From NCBI GenBank assembly GCA_012960315.1, contig DUBN01000059.1, positions 1 through 64,000 of the forward strand: a stretch of DNA of 64,000 nt, read 5' to 3'. Below the pieces are notes generated by a model. That model was given only the letters and a program-made list of their open reading frames with translations, was not told the DNA's origin and did no database searches. Made by a program: the position numbers and the translations under genes. This stretch comes from Acidimicrobiia bacterium. GTDB lineage: Bacteria > Actinomycetota > Acidimicrobiia > Acidimicrobiales > Poriferisodalaceae. Positions 45,749 through 53,401 of the stretch are shown here, piece by piece; positions within the stretch are counted from its first letter, which is position 1; each line of letters begins with the position of its first letter.

Positions 45749-46168
45749 TCAGATGCCCGGAAAGAAAATATTGATTTCGCGTTCAGCAGATTCGTGCGAG
45801 TCGGATCCATGCACAAGGTTTTCGGTCACCATGAGTCCAAAGTCACCTCGAATCGTTCCGGGCGCGGCGGTCGCTGGATTCGTAGCGCCCATTAAGTTTC
45901 GCACGACCGCGTAAATCTCGTCGCCTGCATCATCGGGACCTTCGACAACCATCAACATCGCTGGCGAGCGCGTAACGAATTTGATGAGGTCCTCGAAGAA
46001 GGGTTTCCCATCGTGCTCTTGGTAGTGGATTCCGGCGGTGTCGCGATCGATTGTTCGTAATTCTGCTCGGCTGAGCGTCAGCCCCTTGCGTTCGATCCGG
46101 GCGATGATCTCACCGACCAGTCCTCGTTCCACAGCGTCAGGCTTACAAATCACGAAAGTACGAGGCAC
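45749..46168 (-). CDS. ndk: Nucleoside-diphosphate kinase
   Basis: A 139-residue enzyme that moves the terminal phosphate between NTPs and NDPs through a phosphohistidine. [41 protein letters not shown], and the active-site segment [19 protein letters not shown]...[17 protein letters not shown] with the catalytic His. GTG start with AGGAG 5 nt upstream. Confidence 0.97.
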
Positions 46169-46214
46169 TTAAACTCCTGGAACGGATTTATGTCAGTCGG
46201 CCGTAAGACTACCG

Positions 46215-47537
46215 CTAGGTGTTACGGAGTTGACTTCGGGCCTCCGAGGCAACGTACAAAGAGCCGGTCACGAATACAGTGCCGCTTTCCCCTGCTAGCT
46301 CAATGGCTCGGTCAAGTGCATCGGCGACACGAGGAACAGTCTCTATGCGCGGACCACAATTTTTGAGGGCAATGCCAAGGGTTTCAGCGGCAATAGCTCG
46401 TGGCCAGTCGGCGGCAGTCGCGATGATTACCGAGAATTCTGTGCCTCGAACGGCGTCCACAAATTCGACCGGGTCATGTGGTCGGTTGGTTCCCATAACC
46501 AAAATCGGGGCTTGTTCGTTGGAAAAGTCGTCGAAAAGCGTTTCAGCTGCGACCTCGGCAGCGGGCGGATTATGAGCCCCATCCACGATAACCAGAGGTT
46601 GTCGTTGCATAACCTCAAACCGCGCTGGCAGTTCGAGCCGCGCAAACGCTTCCGAAACGACGTCATCGTCTAACTGTCGACCAAAGAACGCTTCTACTGC
46701 GGCGACTGCAGTGGCTGCATTTTGTGACTGGTGGGCGCCGTTGACAGGGAGAAAAATGTCTTCGTGGCGACCATACGGGGTCACTAGGTCAACTAGCCGG
46801 CCGCCCACAGCGAGTCGATCTTCGATGACGTCGTAATCGCTACGGCCGCACCACAGTTCACGATGTTGGGTTGCTGAGACGATGTCAAGAAGTTCTGGTC
46901 TGGTTTCGCCACAAATGACGTGCGACCGGGGAGAGATAATGCCCGCTTTTTCGTGGGTCGCGTCCGCGATCGTGGGGCCAATGATTTCCAAATGATCCCG
47001 ACCGATGTTGGTGAGCACCACCACTTCTGCTTCGATGATGTTCGTAGCGTCCCAGCGTCCGCCCATTCCGACTTCGATGACATTGACATCAACTGCGGTC
47101 GCTGCGAACCAGTTGTATGCCGCTGCGCACAAAATCTCGAAATAGTTCGGTGTTTCGCCCGTCGATTCGAGAACCCATGGTTCAACTTCGGCCACCTCAG
47201 CAAGTGCTTGTGTCATGGATTCATCGTCGAGAGGTTTGTTAGCGATCATGATGCGGTCGTTTACGCGGTCGATGTGAGGCGATGTGTAGCTACCTACGTC
47301 GAGACCAGTCGCGCCGATGAGTTCGACCACCATTCGAGACGTGCTTCCCTTACCGTTCGTTCCAGTGATATGGATCGCCGGGACGTCGTGTTGCGGGTCG
47401 CCCAAAAGCGCCATAAGGGCCCGCATACGGTCTAAAGATGGGACGGCCAGCTCATTTCCACCCAAATGTTGTTCAAGGTTGTAGTGGTCTTTGAGCCAGT
47501 CCATAGCGTCGGCATAACTACCGATTTGGTGTGACAT
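46215..47537 (-). CDS. folC: Folylpolyglutamate / dihydrofolate synthase
   Basis: A 440-residue Mur-ligase-fold enzyme adding glutamates to folates. Motifs: HITGTNGKGSTSRMVVELI (P loop), SYTSPHIDRVNDRI, VIEVGMGGRWDATNII, TNIGRDHLEIIGPTIADATHEKAGI, and VDGAHNPPAAE. The ATG at 47537 gives the family N-terminus (YADAMDWLKDHYNLEQHLGG); the open frame back to 47603 runs into clpX. A clpX-folC-ndk order occurs in several actinobacteria. Confidence 0.94.
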   Translation of the reverse strand: MSHQIGSYADAMDWLKDHYNLEQHLGGNELAVPSLDRMRALMALLGDPQHDVPAIHITGTNGKGSTSRMVVELIGATGLDVGSYTSPHIDRVNDRIMIANKPLDDESMTQALAEVAEVEPWVLESTGETPNYFEILCAAAYNWFAATAVDVNVIEVGMGGRWDATNIIEAEVVVLTNIGRDHLEIIGPTIADATHEKAGIISPRSHVICGETRPELLDIVSATQHRELWCGRSDYDVIEDRLAVGGRLVDLVTPYGRHEDIFLPVNGAHQSQNAATAVAAVEAFFGRQLDDDVVSEAFARLELPARFEVMQRQPLVIVDGAHNPPAAEVAAETLFDDFSNEQAPILVMGTNRPHDPVEFVDAVRGTEFSVIIATAADWPRAIAAETLGIALKNCGPRIETVPRVADALDRAIELAGESGTVFVTGSLYVASEARSQLRNT

Positions 47538-47571
47538 CTCGTTAGTTGAAGTTCGGCGGGTAACGCTCCGC

Positions 47572-48837
47572 TTATGACGCCTGGCGCTCGCCACCGCTGT
47601 CATCCCTACGCGGCACCAGGGTTGGATTCACTTTGTCGAGGACAACTTCGCGATCGATGATGCAGCGAGCGATGTCTTCTCTGCTGGGCATTTCGTACAT
47701 GACGCCAAGTAGGACTTCTTCAAGGATCGCACGCAAGCCTCGCGCTCCTGTGTTTCGAAGCAACGCTTGGTCGACCACTGCGCCGATGGAGTCGTCAGTA
47801 AATTCAAGTTCGACACCATCGAGTTCAAACATCCGCTGATACTGCTTCACCAACGCATTGCGGGGTTCGGTAAGTATCCGCGTTAAAGCTGAGTGGTCGA
47901 GTTGGTCAACCACGCCAACTACTGGGAGGCGTCCAATGAATTCGGGGATCAGCCCGTACTTTTGAAGATCTTCTGGCAACACCTCGGCTAGCAAGTCCAG
48001 GTTGGCTCGTTCGTTAACAGATTTGACATCGGCTCCAAAACCGACGGCACGTTTCCCGATCCGGTCAGCGATGACGCGCTCAAGGCCGTCGAAAGCACCC
48101 CCGCATATGAACAAAACATTGCTGGTGTCGATCTGTAAGAACTCTTGGTGGGGATGCTTGCGACCACCTTGGGGGGGCACAGAGGCTTGAGTCCCTTCAA
48201 GGATTTTCAGCAAGGCTTGTTGCACGCCCTCCCCTGAAACATCGCGGGTAATTGAGGGGTTTTCAGCTTTGCGTGCGATCTTGTCGATTTCGTCGATGTA
48301 GATGATGCCGGTTTCCGCTCGCTTGACGTCATAGTCAGCGGCTTGAATGAGTTTCAATAAAATATTTTCGACGTCCTCTCCGACGTAACCTGCTTCGGTA
48401 AGCGCTGTAGCGTCGGCGATCGCGAACGGGACGTTAAGCATGCGCGCCAAGGTCTGAGCCATCATGGTTTTCCCGCATCCGGTCGGACCTATCAACATGA
48501 TGTTGGACTTGGCGATTTCGACGTCGGATTCGAGACTTGTCTCAAATTGGATGCGTTTGTAGTGGTTGTATACCGCTACAGACATGATTTTCTTTGTTCG
48601 TTCTTGGCCGATGATGTAATCGTTGAGAAAGCCGCAAATTTCTGCGGGCTTGGGAACATCGTCAAAGCTGACTTCAGAAGTATCAGCTAGTTCTTCTTCG
48701 ATAATTTCATTGCACAGATCGATGCACTCGTCGCAGATGTATACGCCCGGACCGGCGATCAGTTTTTTGACTTGTTTCTGAGATTTACCGCAAAAAGAGC
48801 ACTTCAGCAGCTCTCCGCCCTCTCCGAATTTCGCCAC
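47572..48837 (-). CDS. clpX: ATP-dependent Clp protease ATP-binding subunit ClpX
   Basis: A 421-residue AAA+ unfoldase. The N-terminal zinc domain has CSFCGK...CDECIDLC. Walker A GPTGCGKT, Walker [14 protein letters not shown] pore loop, IGF-type ClpP-binding region ([10 protein letters not shown]) and RH loop are present. GTG start. It feeds unfolded clients to ClpP, encoded upstream across a 188-bp gap in which I see no gene. Confidence 0.96.
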
Positions 48838-49025
48838 GTTGTCTGTACCTCGTTCCGGTGATCCAACCCGATTTCGGTCAATAGCCGTCTGCTAAGGATG
48901 GCACAGCCGGATCAGAACGCGGTGACGTTAAGACCGGTGATGCAGACCACCTGGAGCATTGACTCTCTCTTTAGGGAGTAGAGGTTGAGAGTACCTAGGG
49001 ATTGGGTGTCTGAACAGCAAAAATA

Positions 49026-49658
49026 TCAGACAGCTCGGATCGGCCCATCTTCGACGACTTCACGGCTTTCTATTACGTCGTCAATGATCCCGTATTCTTT
49101 AGCGGCTTGGGCGTCCATGATGAAGTCTCTGTCAGTGTCGTTGTGGATGCGGTCCAGCTCTTGTCCGGTGTGGTGAGCCAAAATTCCTTCGAGGAGTCCT
49201 CGCATCCGGTCTATTTCACGGGCGGCCAATTCAATGTCAGTGGCCTGGCCCATCGCCTGCCCGTAGGGCTGATGCAGGAGTACTCGAGCGTGTGGGAGAG
49301 CCATCCGCTTTCCTGGGCTGCCCGCGGCCAGCAGCACTGCGGCTGCTGAAGCTGCTTGACCCAGGCAGATAGTTGTTATGTCGTTGCGGACGTATTGGCT
49401 GGTGTCATATATAGCGAACAGAGCGTTGATGTCTCCGCCTGGCGAATTGATGTAGATGTTGATGTCACGATCGGGGTTCTCAGATTCGAGGTGAATCATC
49501 TGCGCACAAACCAGGTTGGCGATGGTGTCGTCGATCGGGGTTCCGAGGAAAATAATGTTTTCTTTGAGTAACCGCGAATAGAGGTCGTAGGCGCGTTCGC
49601 CTCGATTGGTTTGTTCGACGACCGTGGGAACTAAGTAGTTCTGTGCCTCAAGGCTCAC
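49026..49658 (-). CDS. clpP: ATP-dependent Clp protease proteolytic subunit
   Basis: A 210-residue serine peptidase. The catalytic Ser104 is in [14 protein letters not shown], His129 in LLHQPYG, and the Asp in the [15 protein letters not shown] segment. The [11 protein letters not shown] and [12 protein letters not shown] blocks are typical. The GTG shares a base with the tig stop (TAGTG). Only one clpP lies between tig and clpX, whereas many actinobacteria carry a clpP1-clpP2 pair here. Confidence 0.95.
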
Positions 49659-51142
49659 TATTCGTCATCCTCCTGTGAATGCTCTTCATTTTCGGTTTCC
49701 GCACTGTCAACCGTACCGTCATGGTCTTCTTCTGAATTGTCGGAATCTGACAGGTCGGGAAGTTCGAGGTCATCGCGGTTGATGGTGTTTCCCTCTGAGT
49801 CAATCAATTCGACTTCAGCAACCAACCATTCCAAGGCTTTACGTTTGCTGATTTCGGCCATGAGCGGTCCGAGTCCATCGCCATGATCTTCGATTTGGTG
49901 TCGAAGTTCAGGAACCGATGTTTCGAACTGCTCAGACATGCGTTCCAGTTCTTCTTCTAACTCGTCGTCGTCAACCTCAATCGATTCTCTTTCGACGATC
50001 GAACGAAGGGCCAAGTCCACTTTGGCTGATCGTTCTGCAGCGTCGCGCAACTCGACGGTGAAAGATTCTGGCTCCTGCCCGGTCATCTGCATCCAGGTTT
50101 CAATGTTCATTCCCTGGCCCTGTAGCCGCATCGCCAGTTGCTGTAGTTGTTCAGACATTTCTCCGTTGACCATGGAATCGGGAATGTCTTCTTCAACTAG
50201 TTCGGCCAGTGCAGTTGCTGTGTTTTCTCTCATTGCTGCGTTCGCCTGAAAGATTCGCATCATTCGCATGCGTTGAATAGTTTCCGACTGCAGTTCCTCC
50301 ACCGTCTCATGATCGGTATTTTCTTCGACCCATTCGTCGTTGAGTTCGGGTAGTACTTCTTCTTTAACTGCGTGAACTTTGATTTCAAAGTCGATCGTGA
50401 CGTCTTCTTGCATCGGGTGGTCGGCGTTGAAGCTGAGTTCATCGCCTGCGCTTACTCCCTCGAGTTGAGAGTCAACCTCCTCGACGATTCCGCCGCTTCC
50501 CACTGAGTACAAGTAGTCATCGGCGGTGAGTCCTGGGAGTGATTCGCCGTCAACGGTTCCTTGAATATCGATAGATACCTGATCACCTGAAGCTGCGGGG
50601 CGTTCCACGTCGATGAGTTCAGCGGATTGGCGTCGTTGTACATCGATTTGTTCTTGGACTTCTTCATCGCTGGGTGCCGGATTAGATATTTCGACTTTCA
50701 GGTCTTCGTAACCTCTGATTCTGATGCGGGGTCGGGTCTCGACGACTGCTTCGAAGCAAACTAGGCCGCTATCTTCACCGCTTGTTAGGGAAAGTTCAGG
50801 GGCCGCTATGACGTCAACGGCTTCGGCTCGGACGGCGTCTGCGTAGTAGCCCGGAATGGCATCTTCTAGTGCTTGGCCTCGGGCATATTCGCTGCCGATG
50901 TGTGATTCGAGGACTGGCCGTGGGACTTTGCCTTTCCTAAATCCTGGAATTTTGATTTCTTTGGCGATTTTCCGAAATGCTTGATCGATGGCGTCGTCAA
51001 AAGTTTCTTCATCGACTTCGACGGTCAGCTTGATCTTGGGTCCAAAGGTGCGCTCTTGGGCTTCGCCAGCATCATCTGACTCTTCTGCTTCGGAGGCAGC
51101 GGCAAGGTCATCGGGGTCGACTTCGGTCACGGTGGTCTTCAC
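49658..51142 (-). CDS. tig: Trigger factor
   Basis: A 494-residue ribosome-bound chaperone with prolyl isomerase activity. After a short acidic N-terminal extension comes the ribosome-binding domain with [15 protein letters not shown]. The FKBP-like domain follows ([20 protein letters not shown]...[24 protein letters not shown]), then the helical chaperone domain. The C-terminal tail is strongly acidic ([21 protein letters not shown]). The N-terminal extension ([24 protein letters not shown]) is unusual; in most trigger factors the ribosome-binding domain starts within a few residues. Confidence 0.94.
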
Positions 51143-51202
51143 AAGGGCCGAATTCTATCGGGCGGTTCCGTTGTCCCCTATTGCAGTTCACGACTGAGTT
51201 TG

Positions 51203-51274
51203 AGCGGGCGACGAGAATCGAACTCGCATCATCAGCTTGGAAGGCTGAGGTTCTGGCCATTGAACTACGCCCGC
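51203..51274 (-). tRNA. tRNA-Gly (anticodon TCC)
   Basis: A 72-nt cloverleaf on the minus strand. Acceptor GCGGGCG/CGCCCGC, anticodon stem TCAGC/GCTGA with loop CTTCCAA, giving anticodon TCC for GGA. T arm GCGAG-TTCGATT-CTCGT and discriminator T, as usual for tRNA-Gly. CCA is not encoded. It lies about 60 bp upstream of tig in the same direction and may share its transcript. Confidence 0.95.
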
Positions 51275-51307: not shown

Positions 51308-52414
51308 CTACAGATCGAAGGGCAAGTCAACGACGATCGCCGGTCGCCATCCGGTTGGTGTGTGAACCTGCAATTTGGTACCTGGAAGGTTTTGCGGGAC
51401 CTCTACGATCGCTAATCCTAAATTTCGTTCGTATCGCGGCGAGTAGACGACAGCTCGGGTTTGACCAGCGTAGGAGCCGTTGGGAGTTTGTAGTCCCACC
51501 GGTTCTGGGTTCGCCTCGAGAGGCTCCCCATCGATCAATAGACCTTTTAACTCCCGGGTCGGCCCTTCGGCTCGTTTGGCAAGCAACGCATTCTTTCCCA
51601 CAAAGTCGTGAGTTGCGCCCAGATCTATATAGCTACCGATTGCGGCCTCGAAGGGGTCACTCTCGGCGTCGGTGTCGGAGCCCCAGGCGAGAAGAAAATT
51701 TTCGATTCGTTCAGCGTTATTGGGCGCACCCACTCGAATGCCATGGGGCTGTCCGGCTGCCCAAATGAGATCCCACAATTGGTCTCCTTTGCTGCCGTCT
51801 TCAAGGAAAAGTTCGAAACCGCCTTGTTTACTCCAACCTGACCGGCACACGACTAGAGGAATACCTTCATGGTGGATCCGTCGAAAATGGAAGAACTTCA
51901 GTTCGTGCACCCATTCTCCGAACACAGCCGCGACGGTGTCTGTTGCGCTCGGGCCTTGAACGGCTAACGGAGAAACATCTGGTTCGCTTACTTCGACATC
52001 GTCACCGCGTTCACCGCTAATCGCGCGTATCCACAAAAGGACGTCCGAGTCTGCGATTGAGAACCACACCGTGTCCTCATTAACTCTTAGTACAACGGGG
52101 TCGTTGATGAGACGGCCGTCATAATCGCACAGTGGCGCGTACTTGGCGACGCCGATTCGGAGTTGTGACAAGTCGCGGGCACTTAAGTATTGGCAAAGTT
52201 CGAGGGCGTCGGGGCCTTGAACCTGTACTTGGCGTTGACAACCCACATCCCATAACGAAACCCTCTGAGTTAACGCCTCATAATCTGCGGTTGGGTCATC
52301 AGTGGCTATGGGCAGAACCATACGGTTGTAGACCGTTGCTACCGTCATCCCCGCGGCCTTCGACCGGCCATAGAAGGGAGAGGTCCTGACCCTGGGTCCC
52401 TCAGTGAGTTTCAT
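51308..52414 (-). CDS. dmdA: Dimethylsulfoniopropionate demethylase DmdA
   Basis: A 368-residue GcvT-fold protein. It carries long stretches I recognise from the SAR11 DmdA: WDVGCQRQVQVQGPDA, LSARDLSQLRIG, LINDPVVLRV, WFSIADSDVLLW, EPDVSPLAVQGPSA, and RSGWSKQGGFELFL followed by LWDLIWAAGQPHGI and NAERIENFLLAWGSD. These separate DmdA from ordinary glycine-cleavage T proteins. It would transfer a methyl from DMSP to tetrahydrofolate, giving methylmercaptopropionate. ATG at 52414 is used; a TTG at 52423 is possible. No dmdB, dmdC or dmdD lies nearby; an SDR gene is just upstream. Confidence 0.85.
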   Translation of the reverse strand: MKLTEGPRVRTSPFYGRSKAAGMTVATVYNRMVLPIATDDPTADYEALTQRVSLWDVGCQRQVQVQGPDALELCQYLSARDLSQLRIGVAKYAPLCDYDGRLINDPVVLRVNEDTVWFSIADSDVLLWIRAISGERGDDVEVSEPDVSPLAVQGPSATDTVAAVFGEWVHELKFFHFRRIHHEGIPLVVCRSGWSKQGGFELFLEDGSKGDQLWDLIWAAGQPHGIRVGAPNNAERIENFLLAWGSDTDAESDPFEAAIGSYIDLGATHDFVGKNALLAKRAEGPTRELKGLLIDGEPLEANPEPVGLQTPNGSYAGQTRAVVYSPRYERNLGLAIVEVPQNLPGTKLQVHTPTGWRPAIVVDLPFDL

Positions 52415-52447: not shown

Positions 52448-53401
52448 TTAACGGGAGTCAAAATAATTGAGGTGGCCGCGTTCAACAATTCGCTGCAGGA
52501 ACTCTGGTTCGTATGCGAATTCAGGGTCCTCGCGGACAAGTTCGTCGAGCACGATTGCGTCGTCACCAACCAGGATTCGCCAACTCTTCTCACGCACCCC
52601 GTCGAGAATGATGGCAGCTGCTTCAGCTGCCGTGGTGGGGGCGTCATCCCTAAACCGTTCGCCCCGAGAAACAACCAGTTCGGTCAGATCTGCGTCACTC
52701 ATTTGGTCCACATCGGTGCCTCGTTCAGCCAGAGTTTTTCGAATCCGTTCGAGGTCAGGGCCACCATGCGCTGCAGTGCTATTAAGAGCAATCGAAGTTC
52801 CTATATGGCCGGGCATGACGACGTGTGCCATCACATGGGGAGCGTGAAGGCGAAGGTCGATGTTGAGGGCTTCGGTAAAGCCTTTGACCGCAAATTTCGC
52901 TGCACAGTACGCCGTATGAGGGACGTCAGGTCCAACAGTCGCCCAAAAACCGTTGATGCTGCTGGTGTTCACTATGTGGCCCTCTTCGCTGCGAATGAGG
53001 AGCGGCAGAAATGCGCGACATCCGTGATACACCCCGCGCCAGCAGACGTCGAAAGTTTTTTCCCACGCCATTCGGTCCTCATCAGTCACGAAACTTCCGC
53101 CGCCTCCGATGCCAGCGTTGTTGAACACTAAATCGACATGCTCAACTGCGTGTCGGGCTTCAACTTGGCTACGAAACGCCAACATGTCAGCTTCGTCTGC
53201 TACATCGCAAACGTGTGAGGTCACCCGTACGTCGTCCGTCGTTTCCAAAAGAGCGAGTCGTTCGGTTTCCATCATGTTGTCTGGGCTGACGTCACACATC
53301 GCGACGTGGCATCCCGCTGCTGCAAGTTGTCGCACTAACTCGCGACCCATGCCGGTGCCGCCTCCCGTCACTATGGCCATTTTCCCGTCGAAATTACGCA
53401 T
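52448..53401 (-). CDS. Short-chain dehydrogenase/reductase
   Basis: A 317-residue classical SDR. Cofactor loop AIVTGGGTGMGREL, NNAG in DLVFNNAGIGGGG, catalytic Ser in IVNTSSINGF, and Tyr-x3-Lys in TAYCAAKFAVKGF. The acidic residue after the second strand (CDVS) favours NAD. ATG at 53401 has GGAGG 4 nt upstream. The substrate is unknown. It precedes dmdA by 33 bp in the same direction, so a link to sulfur or methyl metabolism is possible but not shown. Confidence 0.85.
   Translation of the reverse strand: MRNFDGKMAIVTGGGTGMGRELVRQLAAAGCHVAMCDVSPDNMMETERLALLETTDDVRVTSHVCDVADEADMLAFRSQVEARHAVEHVDLVFNNAGIGGGGSFVTDEDRMAWEKTFDVCWRGVYHGCRAFLPLLIRSEEGHIVNTSSINGFWATVGPDVPHTAYCAAKFAVKGFTEALNIDLRLHAPHVMAHVVMPGHIGTSIALNSTAAHGGPDLERIRKTLAERGTDVDQMSDADLTELVVSRGERFRDDAPTTAAEAAAIILDGVREKSWRILVGDDAIVLDELVREDPEFAYEPEFLQRIVERGHLNYFDSR

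Follow-up and report, generated by a model that had tools for sequence, protein, structure and literature searches.

The window, a 64,000-nucleotide stretch of an acidimicrobiian contig, encodes a DmdA-like protein that is placed in a sister clade to DmdA proper and lies outside the DmdA clades A–E. The protein is labelled DmdA-like, not DmdA proper, because it scores 363 bits against a cut-off of 410 bits in the curated DMSP demethylase model, falls into a separate supported clade, and is kept apart from DmdA proper by an AU test. The family is known and the clade is a variant of it; the useful points are that this clade, here termed clade III, stands separately and that DMSP is only a putative substrate. 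The names clade I, II and III are labels coined for the present analysis only.

The DmdA-like gene and its locus

The reading frame lies on the minus strand, starts with ATG at 52414, ends with a stop codon at 51308–51310 and encodes 368 amino acids, and the plus strand across 51308–52414 contains 14 stops. A first-pass annotation had noted a frame at this position, leaving its strand unstated, and had quoted five sequence blocks as shared with SAR11 DmdA; the frame is real, and all five blocks (WDVGCQRQV, LINDPV, SIADSDV, EPDVSPLAVQGP and RSGWSKQGGFE) are found in the protein. Both the GCV_T and the GCV_T_C Pfam domains are present. The gene is single-copy in the window genome, where the remaining GcvT-fold matches score at most 61 bits.

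Table 1. Features of the DmdA-like locus in the window.
Feature	Position	Strand	Remark
DmdA-like THF-dependent methyltransferase of clade III (368 aa)	51308..52414	-	GCV_T and GCV_T_C domains; function predicted
Short-chain dehydrogenase/reductase (SDR), directly upstream, 33 bp gap	52448..53398	-	Matches generic SDR models only
tRNA-Gly (TCC), between the DmdA-like gene and tig	51202..51274	-	Context only; no part in the function
Housekeeping block tig, clpP, clpX, folC, ndk, downstream	45749..51142	-	Context; fixes the location across marine relatives

The gene order SDR, DmdA-like, tRNA-Gly, tig, clpP, clpX, folC is constant across the marine members of the family, where the tig block adjoins the DmdA-like gene. 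Most marine members retain the SDR and DmdA-like pair, as does a second genus group of the family, and the DmdA-like gene itself is present in most of the GTDB family. One orthologue (L232, G011:C24:15102-16168) is broken into two frames with stops at the joint, either by a sequencing error or as a decayed copy. The relatives that bear names are MAGs of marine Acidimicrobiia (MED-G95, ETNP, Arabian Sea and 'Candidatus Microthrix' UBA MAGs), hence the window organism is very probably a planktonic marine acidimicrobiian. The earlier proposal of either transfer or an overlooked clade was near the truth in its second part, represented by clade III; recent transfer into the window genome is not supported, given the fixed location and the family-wide presence. 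The observation that dmdB, dmdC and dmdD are not adjacent agrees with the window gene list.

Similarity to DmdA and GcvT

The best match among solved structures is Pelagibacter ubique DmdA (3tfh; E 4e-79, 270 bits), followed by Thermotoga maritima GcvT, the best of the GcvT structures, with 114 bits. The earlier statement that the sequence blocks are those of DmdA rather than GcvT is thus borne out. In BLASTP, the identity to P. ubique DmdA is 36.6% across 361 residues. An AlphaFold model computed from 42 aligned relatives (mean pLDDT 93.9) superimposes on 3tfh with a TM score of 0.95 and a Z score of 46.5, compared with Z scores of about 41 for GcvT structures. In length and in the three-domain GcvT fold, the protein is like the DmdAs of clades A–E, such as those of P. 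ubique (3tfh) and Ruegeria pomeroyi. The score of 362.8 bits in the NCBIfam DMSP demethylase model NF009133 is below its curated equivalog cut-off (410 bits), and the GcvT model gives 153 bits against a cut-off of 300. GcvT, DMGDH, TMAO demethylase and LigM share the fold and the folate site, but have about 17–27% identity, other signature residues and another place in the tree. A separate GcvT candidate of the window genome, encoded on contig C4, falls on the outgroup side of the tree.

Phylogeny and distribution

The main tree was constructed by maximum likelihood in IQ-TREE from 81 rows (LG+C20+F+G4 PMSF model; supports below are UFBoot/SH-aLRT). Clade I is DmdA proper and includes Pelagibacter, Roseobacter, Gammaproteobacteria and four actinobacterial proteins (100/100). 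Beside it is group Ib, which is small (92/83). Clade III, which holds the window protein (100/99), is next to clade I. Clade II consists of Phaeobacter plasmid paralogues and proteins of terrestrial Actinobacteria and haloarchaea (100/99), and is split from clades I, Ib and III together at 100/99. A long, fully supported branch divides this DmdA superfamily (I, II, III) from GcvT and DMGDH. A quick tree of 161 rows gave the same picture. When the window family was constrained to group with clade I, the likelihood was worse by 65 log units (AU p 0.0077). The first-pass annotation had named the protein DmdA and proposed a tree with DmdA clades A–E and GcvT/sarcosine dehydrogenase outgroups; the protein does group with DmdA and not with GcvT, DMGDH or YgfZ, but the name holds only in the wider sense, since both the model score and the AU test place it outside DmdA proper.

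Clade III is widespread, with members in marine and freshwater Acidimicrobiia and Alphaproteobacteria. Among 396 Actinomycetota genomes, only four have a protein above the NF009133 cut-off (492–527 bits). About 63 further genomes, the window genome included, have matches of about 284–375 bits, many with two to four copies, and two genomes carry both the above- and the below-cut-off kinds. Clade I and clade III genes coexist in the genomes of L155 and L152. The four clade I DmdA genes of the sampled Actinomycetota are L036, L037, L038 and L039 (genomes G128, G145, G364 and G204); no dmdB/C/D-like gene was seen near them, and an AcuI-like gene is near one. Up to four DmdA-like genes per genome, some in tandem, occur in G082, G096, G120, G154, G165, G282 and others (family f41).

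Conserved residues

In alignment numbering, Hernandez et al. 2020 (PMC7487153) described S99, E178 and Y180 as folate-site residues and W171 as DMSP-specific. Placed on 3tfh by spacing, an inferred mapping, these residues are S122, E204, Y206 and W197; the window protein has S119, E201, F203 and W194, that is, the folate serine and glutamate are kept and the tyrosine is replaced by phenylalanine. At position 206, Tyr occupies every one of the 20 clade I rows, the SAR116 rows and those of the dmd-operon alphaproteobacteria in clade III; Phe stands there in 18 of the 19 window-family rows and in all MedAcidi rows. W197 is a weak marker, being Trp in 13 and Tyr in seven of the 20 clade I rows. 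Clades I and III have in common A154, F178, Q200, G201 and E238 (3tfh numbering); clade II has Q, Y, E, L/V and R at the same five positions, and E200 occurs in GcvT-type rows as well. All 19 window-family rows have Phe at position 243, next to the R239/E241 motif; this is a private feature of the family, the residue being mostly Gly elsewhere.

The window protein shares with the DmdAs of clades A–E the S122/E204/W197 positions and the residue signature that sets them against clade II and GcvT. It differs from them in its sister-clade position, its score below the NCBIfam cut-off and the replacements of Y206 and G243 by Phe, and its gene has neither dmd nor acuI neighbours.

Genomic context of related genes

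Neighbours related to DMSP degradation are found in several alphaproteobacteria of one subclade of clade III, different from that of the window family. In Marivivens sp. LCG002, the clade III gene precedes genes for an AMP-binding protein (DmdB), an acyl-CoA dehydrogenase (DmdC) and DmdD; in Rhizobiaceae (L125), it is near genes for a crotonase and an SBP56 protein (MtoX family). Other members of this subclade have a DmdD-like neighbour (L141), a crotonase and an acyl-CoA dehydrogenase (L142), or a crotonase (L131, Ahrensia). The Marivivens protein (WP_285772510.1), which its annotation describes only as a glycine cleavage T barrel protein, belongs to the same clade as the window protein with 47–49% identity and is likewise below the cut-off (360 bits). 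Unlike the window gene, it is encoded in a DmdB-DmdC-DmdD operon, and its subclade retains Y206 and G243.

In MedAcidi-type Acidimicrobiia, the gene of the choline dehydrogenase BetA (TIGR01810, 799 bits against a cut-off of 732) is directly upstream of the clade III gene, which overlaps or follows it. The overlap is 4–7 bp in four cases (L116, L098, L112 and L130), which suggests translational coupling. The marine actinobacterium MedAcidi-G2B, whose genome is of the MedAcidi type reported by Mizuno et al. 2015, has the clade III gene only. Its protein is, like the window protein, an acidimicrobiian member of clade III with Y206F; however, its gene overlaps betA where the window gene follows the SDR gene, and its group lacks Phe at position 243. 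Other Acidimicrobiia clade III genes are near DMGDH-like/MttB-like genes (L235, L109; L135) or a gene for a methyl-THF:corrinoid methyltransferase (MeTr; L103), and in Planktomarina (L124) MttB-like and BetA genes are nearby.

In SAR116 and relatives (L117, L089, L095, L097, L102 and L133), a gene for a threonine-aldolase/GntG-type PLP enzyme is directly upstream of the clade III gene. On Phaeobacter and Loktanella plasmids, clade II genes annotated only as GcvT-type (L068, L069 and L071) are accompanied by genes for acyl-CoA synthetase, crotonase, OsmC or SBP56, and could encode further DMSP-type demethylases.

The DmdAs of SAR92 bacteria (HTCC2207, H921 and H231) are outside clades A–E and work in complementation (PMC10746254). 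By their description, with about 35–40% identity to reference DmdA, they resemble the window protein; unlike it, they have been shown to function by complementation and are encoded in a dmdA-acuH-dmdB-dmdC cluster. In 321 genomes from the class of one gammaproteobacterial locus, members of clades I, II and III are all present, but neither a named SAR92 bacterium nor an unambiguous dmdA-acuH-dmdB-dmdC cluster was found. Functional DmdA-like proteins are also cited for Vibrio and Psychrobacter (PMC13310141).

Other relevant genes of the window genome

A genome search for dmdD, proposed in the first-pass annotation, yielded no orthologue in the window genome (the best of 45 crotonases has 31% identity, 83 bits), and MtoX (SBP56) is absent from it, as there is no PF05694 match. 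MtoX is not obligatory in DMSP demethylation, and DmdB and DmdC belong to generic FadD/FadE-type families, which makes them poor discriminators. The missing DmdD is not decisive because SAR11 and SAR116 lack dmdD too (PMC8547437). A double CaiB protein on contig C63 was checked as a candidate DddD, but its best named models are other CoA-transferases.

Contig C45 (L223:790-19068) carries a cluster of genes for MeTr, a corrinoid reactivase, an MttB-like protein, BetA (804 bits), formate dehydrogenase, EtfAB and a DMGDH-like protein. Given this content, the cell probably oxidises methyl groups via tetrahydrofolate (THF) and handles betaine by the C45 system. We screened 17 clade III genomes for MttB-family, S-methyl_trans and DMGDH-like proteins, and MttB-family and DMGDH-like proteins are encoded in all 17, including the streamlined MedAcidi. 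Their genes as neighbours are therefore weak evidence, and the idea that Acidimicrobiia depend on the DmdA-like enzyme alone to turn glycine betaine into dimethylglycine is rejected.

Proposed reaction and substrate

DmdA, with which SAR11 bacteria demethylate the algal compound DMSP, transfers a methyl group to THF without redox change (reviewed in PMC5395565), and the window protein is most likely a THF-dependent, redox-neutral onium demethylase of the same kind. The methyl donor of the GcvT-fold enzyme would be a small onium compound, an S-methyl sulfonium or an N-methyl ammonium, and the products would be 5-methyl-THF and the demethylated acid. DMSP is the single likeliest candidate substrate, with chances that we would put at about even; the product would be methylmercaptopropionate (MMPA). 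With no DmdD or MtoX orthologues, MMPA, if made, would pass to generic beta-oxidation enzymes; alternatively, the enzyme could mainly feed the C1 and energy supply via 5-methyl-THF.

The DMSP reading is favoured because clade III alphaproteobacteria (Marivivens, Rhizobiaceae and Ahrensia) have dmdB/C/D- or MtoX-like neighbours. The 3tfh match, the fold, the place in the tree, the residues common to clades I and III, and S119/E201/W194 also speak for it. The functional DmdAs of SAR92, outside clades A–E, are a further point in its favour. Against DMSP stand the score below the cut-off, Y206F, Phe at 243, and the lack of adjacent dmd genes, DmdD and MtoX. Moreover, the dmd-type operons belong to another clade III subclade, and the nearest Acidimicrobiia relatives outside the family adjoin choline/betaine genes. 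In Acidimicrobiia, the clade III gene is paired with an SDR (window family) or a choline dehydrogenase (MedAcidi), a pairing that does not point to one substrate.

A somewhat less probable but serious competitor is the same chemistry on a quaternary ammonium or another sulfonium osmolyte: glycine betaine, a derivative of choline or of hydroxylated betaine, DMSOP, or gonyol-type compounds. The SDR or BetA could then act on an alcohol that this route produces or consumes. The betA genes directly upstream in MedAcidi, overlapping in four of them, the DMGDH-like, MttB-like and MeTr neighbours (L235, L109, L135, L103), the MttB-like and BetA genes of Planktomarina L124, and Y206F together with G243F in the window family are consistent with it. 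As to glycine betaine, however, the enzyme is not needed where MttB-family and DMGDH-like proteins occur in 17/17 genomes, such neighbours are common in these genomes, and a cluster for MeTr, reactivase, MttB-like protein, BetA, formate dehydrogenase and DMGDH is present on another contig of the window genome itself. That the protein is a genuine DmdA which simply evolved rapidly in Actinobacteria is very improbable: the 36–40% identity to characterised or annotated DmdA is akin to distances within clade I, and the folate and Trp positions are conserved, but clades I and III are each monophyletic with full support, a grouping of the window family with clade I is rejected by the AU test, and other Actinomycetota do have true DmdA of clade I (492–527 bits), the L155 and L152 genomes holding both a clade I and a clade III gene. 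The GCV_T and GCV_T_C domains would also fit an ordinary protein of the GcvT, DMGDH-like or folate-binding YgfZ/IBA57 type, yet this identity can be practically dismissed, being ruled out by the tree and the scores: GcvT reaches 153 of the required 300 bits, the intervening branch is long and fully supported, and the genome has its separate GcvT candidate on C4.

Implications

The first-pass annotation regarded DmdA in an actinobacterium as a surprise. This surprise is reduced, since a 2015 study had already attributed dmdA to marine Acidimicrobiales (Mizuno et al., as cited in PMC6309047) and Acidimicrobiia are among the dmdA carriers in MAG surveys (PMC7494906 and PMC13280387). The dmdA calls of PMC13280387 were made by a profile search with 40% similarity and 1e-30 as thresholds; the survey papers do not show whether their Acidimicrobiia dmdA calls are clade III genes. 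We consider it a minority possibility that clade III forms a family of its own, as yet without a name, of THF-dependent onium demethylases whose Acidimicrobiia branch has a non-DMSP substrate, so that a part of the 'dmdA' in ocean surveys would not be DMSP demethylase.

The abundance of dmdA serves to estimate how much DMSP is demethylated and how much is turned into DMS, and Acidimicrobiia recur in the lists of dmdA carriers drawn up by profile searches. If the Acidimicrobiia 'dmdA' forms a sister clade that acts on a different substrate, estimates of DMSP demethylation would shift. If DMSP is in fact the clade III substrate, the curated model with its cut-off of 410 bits would have missed an entire clade of DMSP demethylases.
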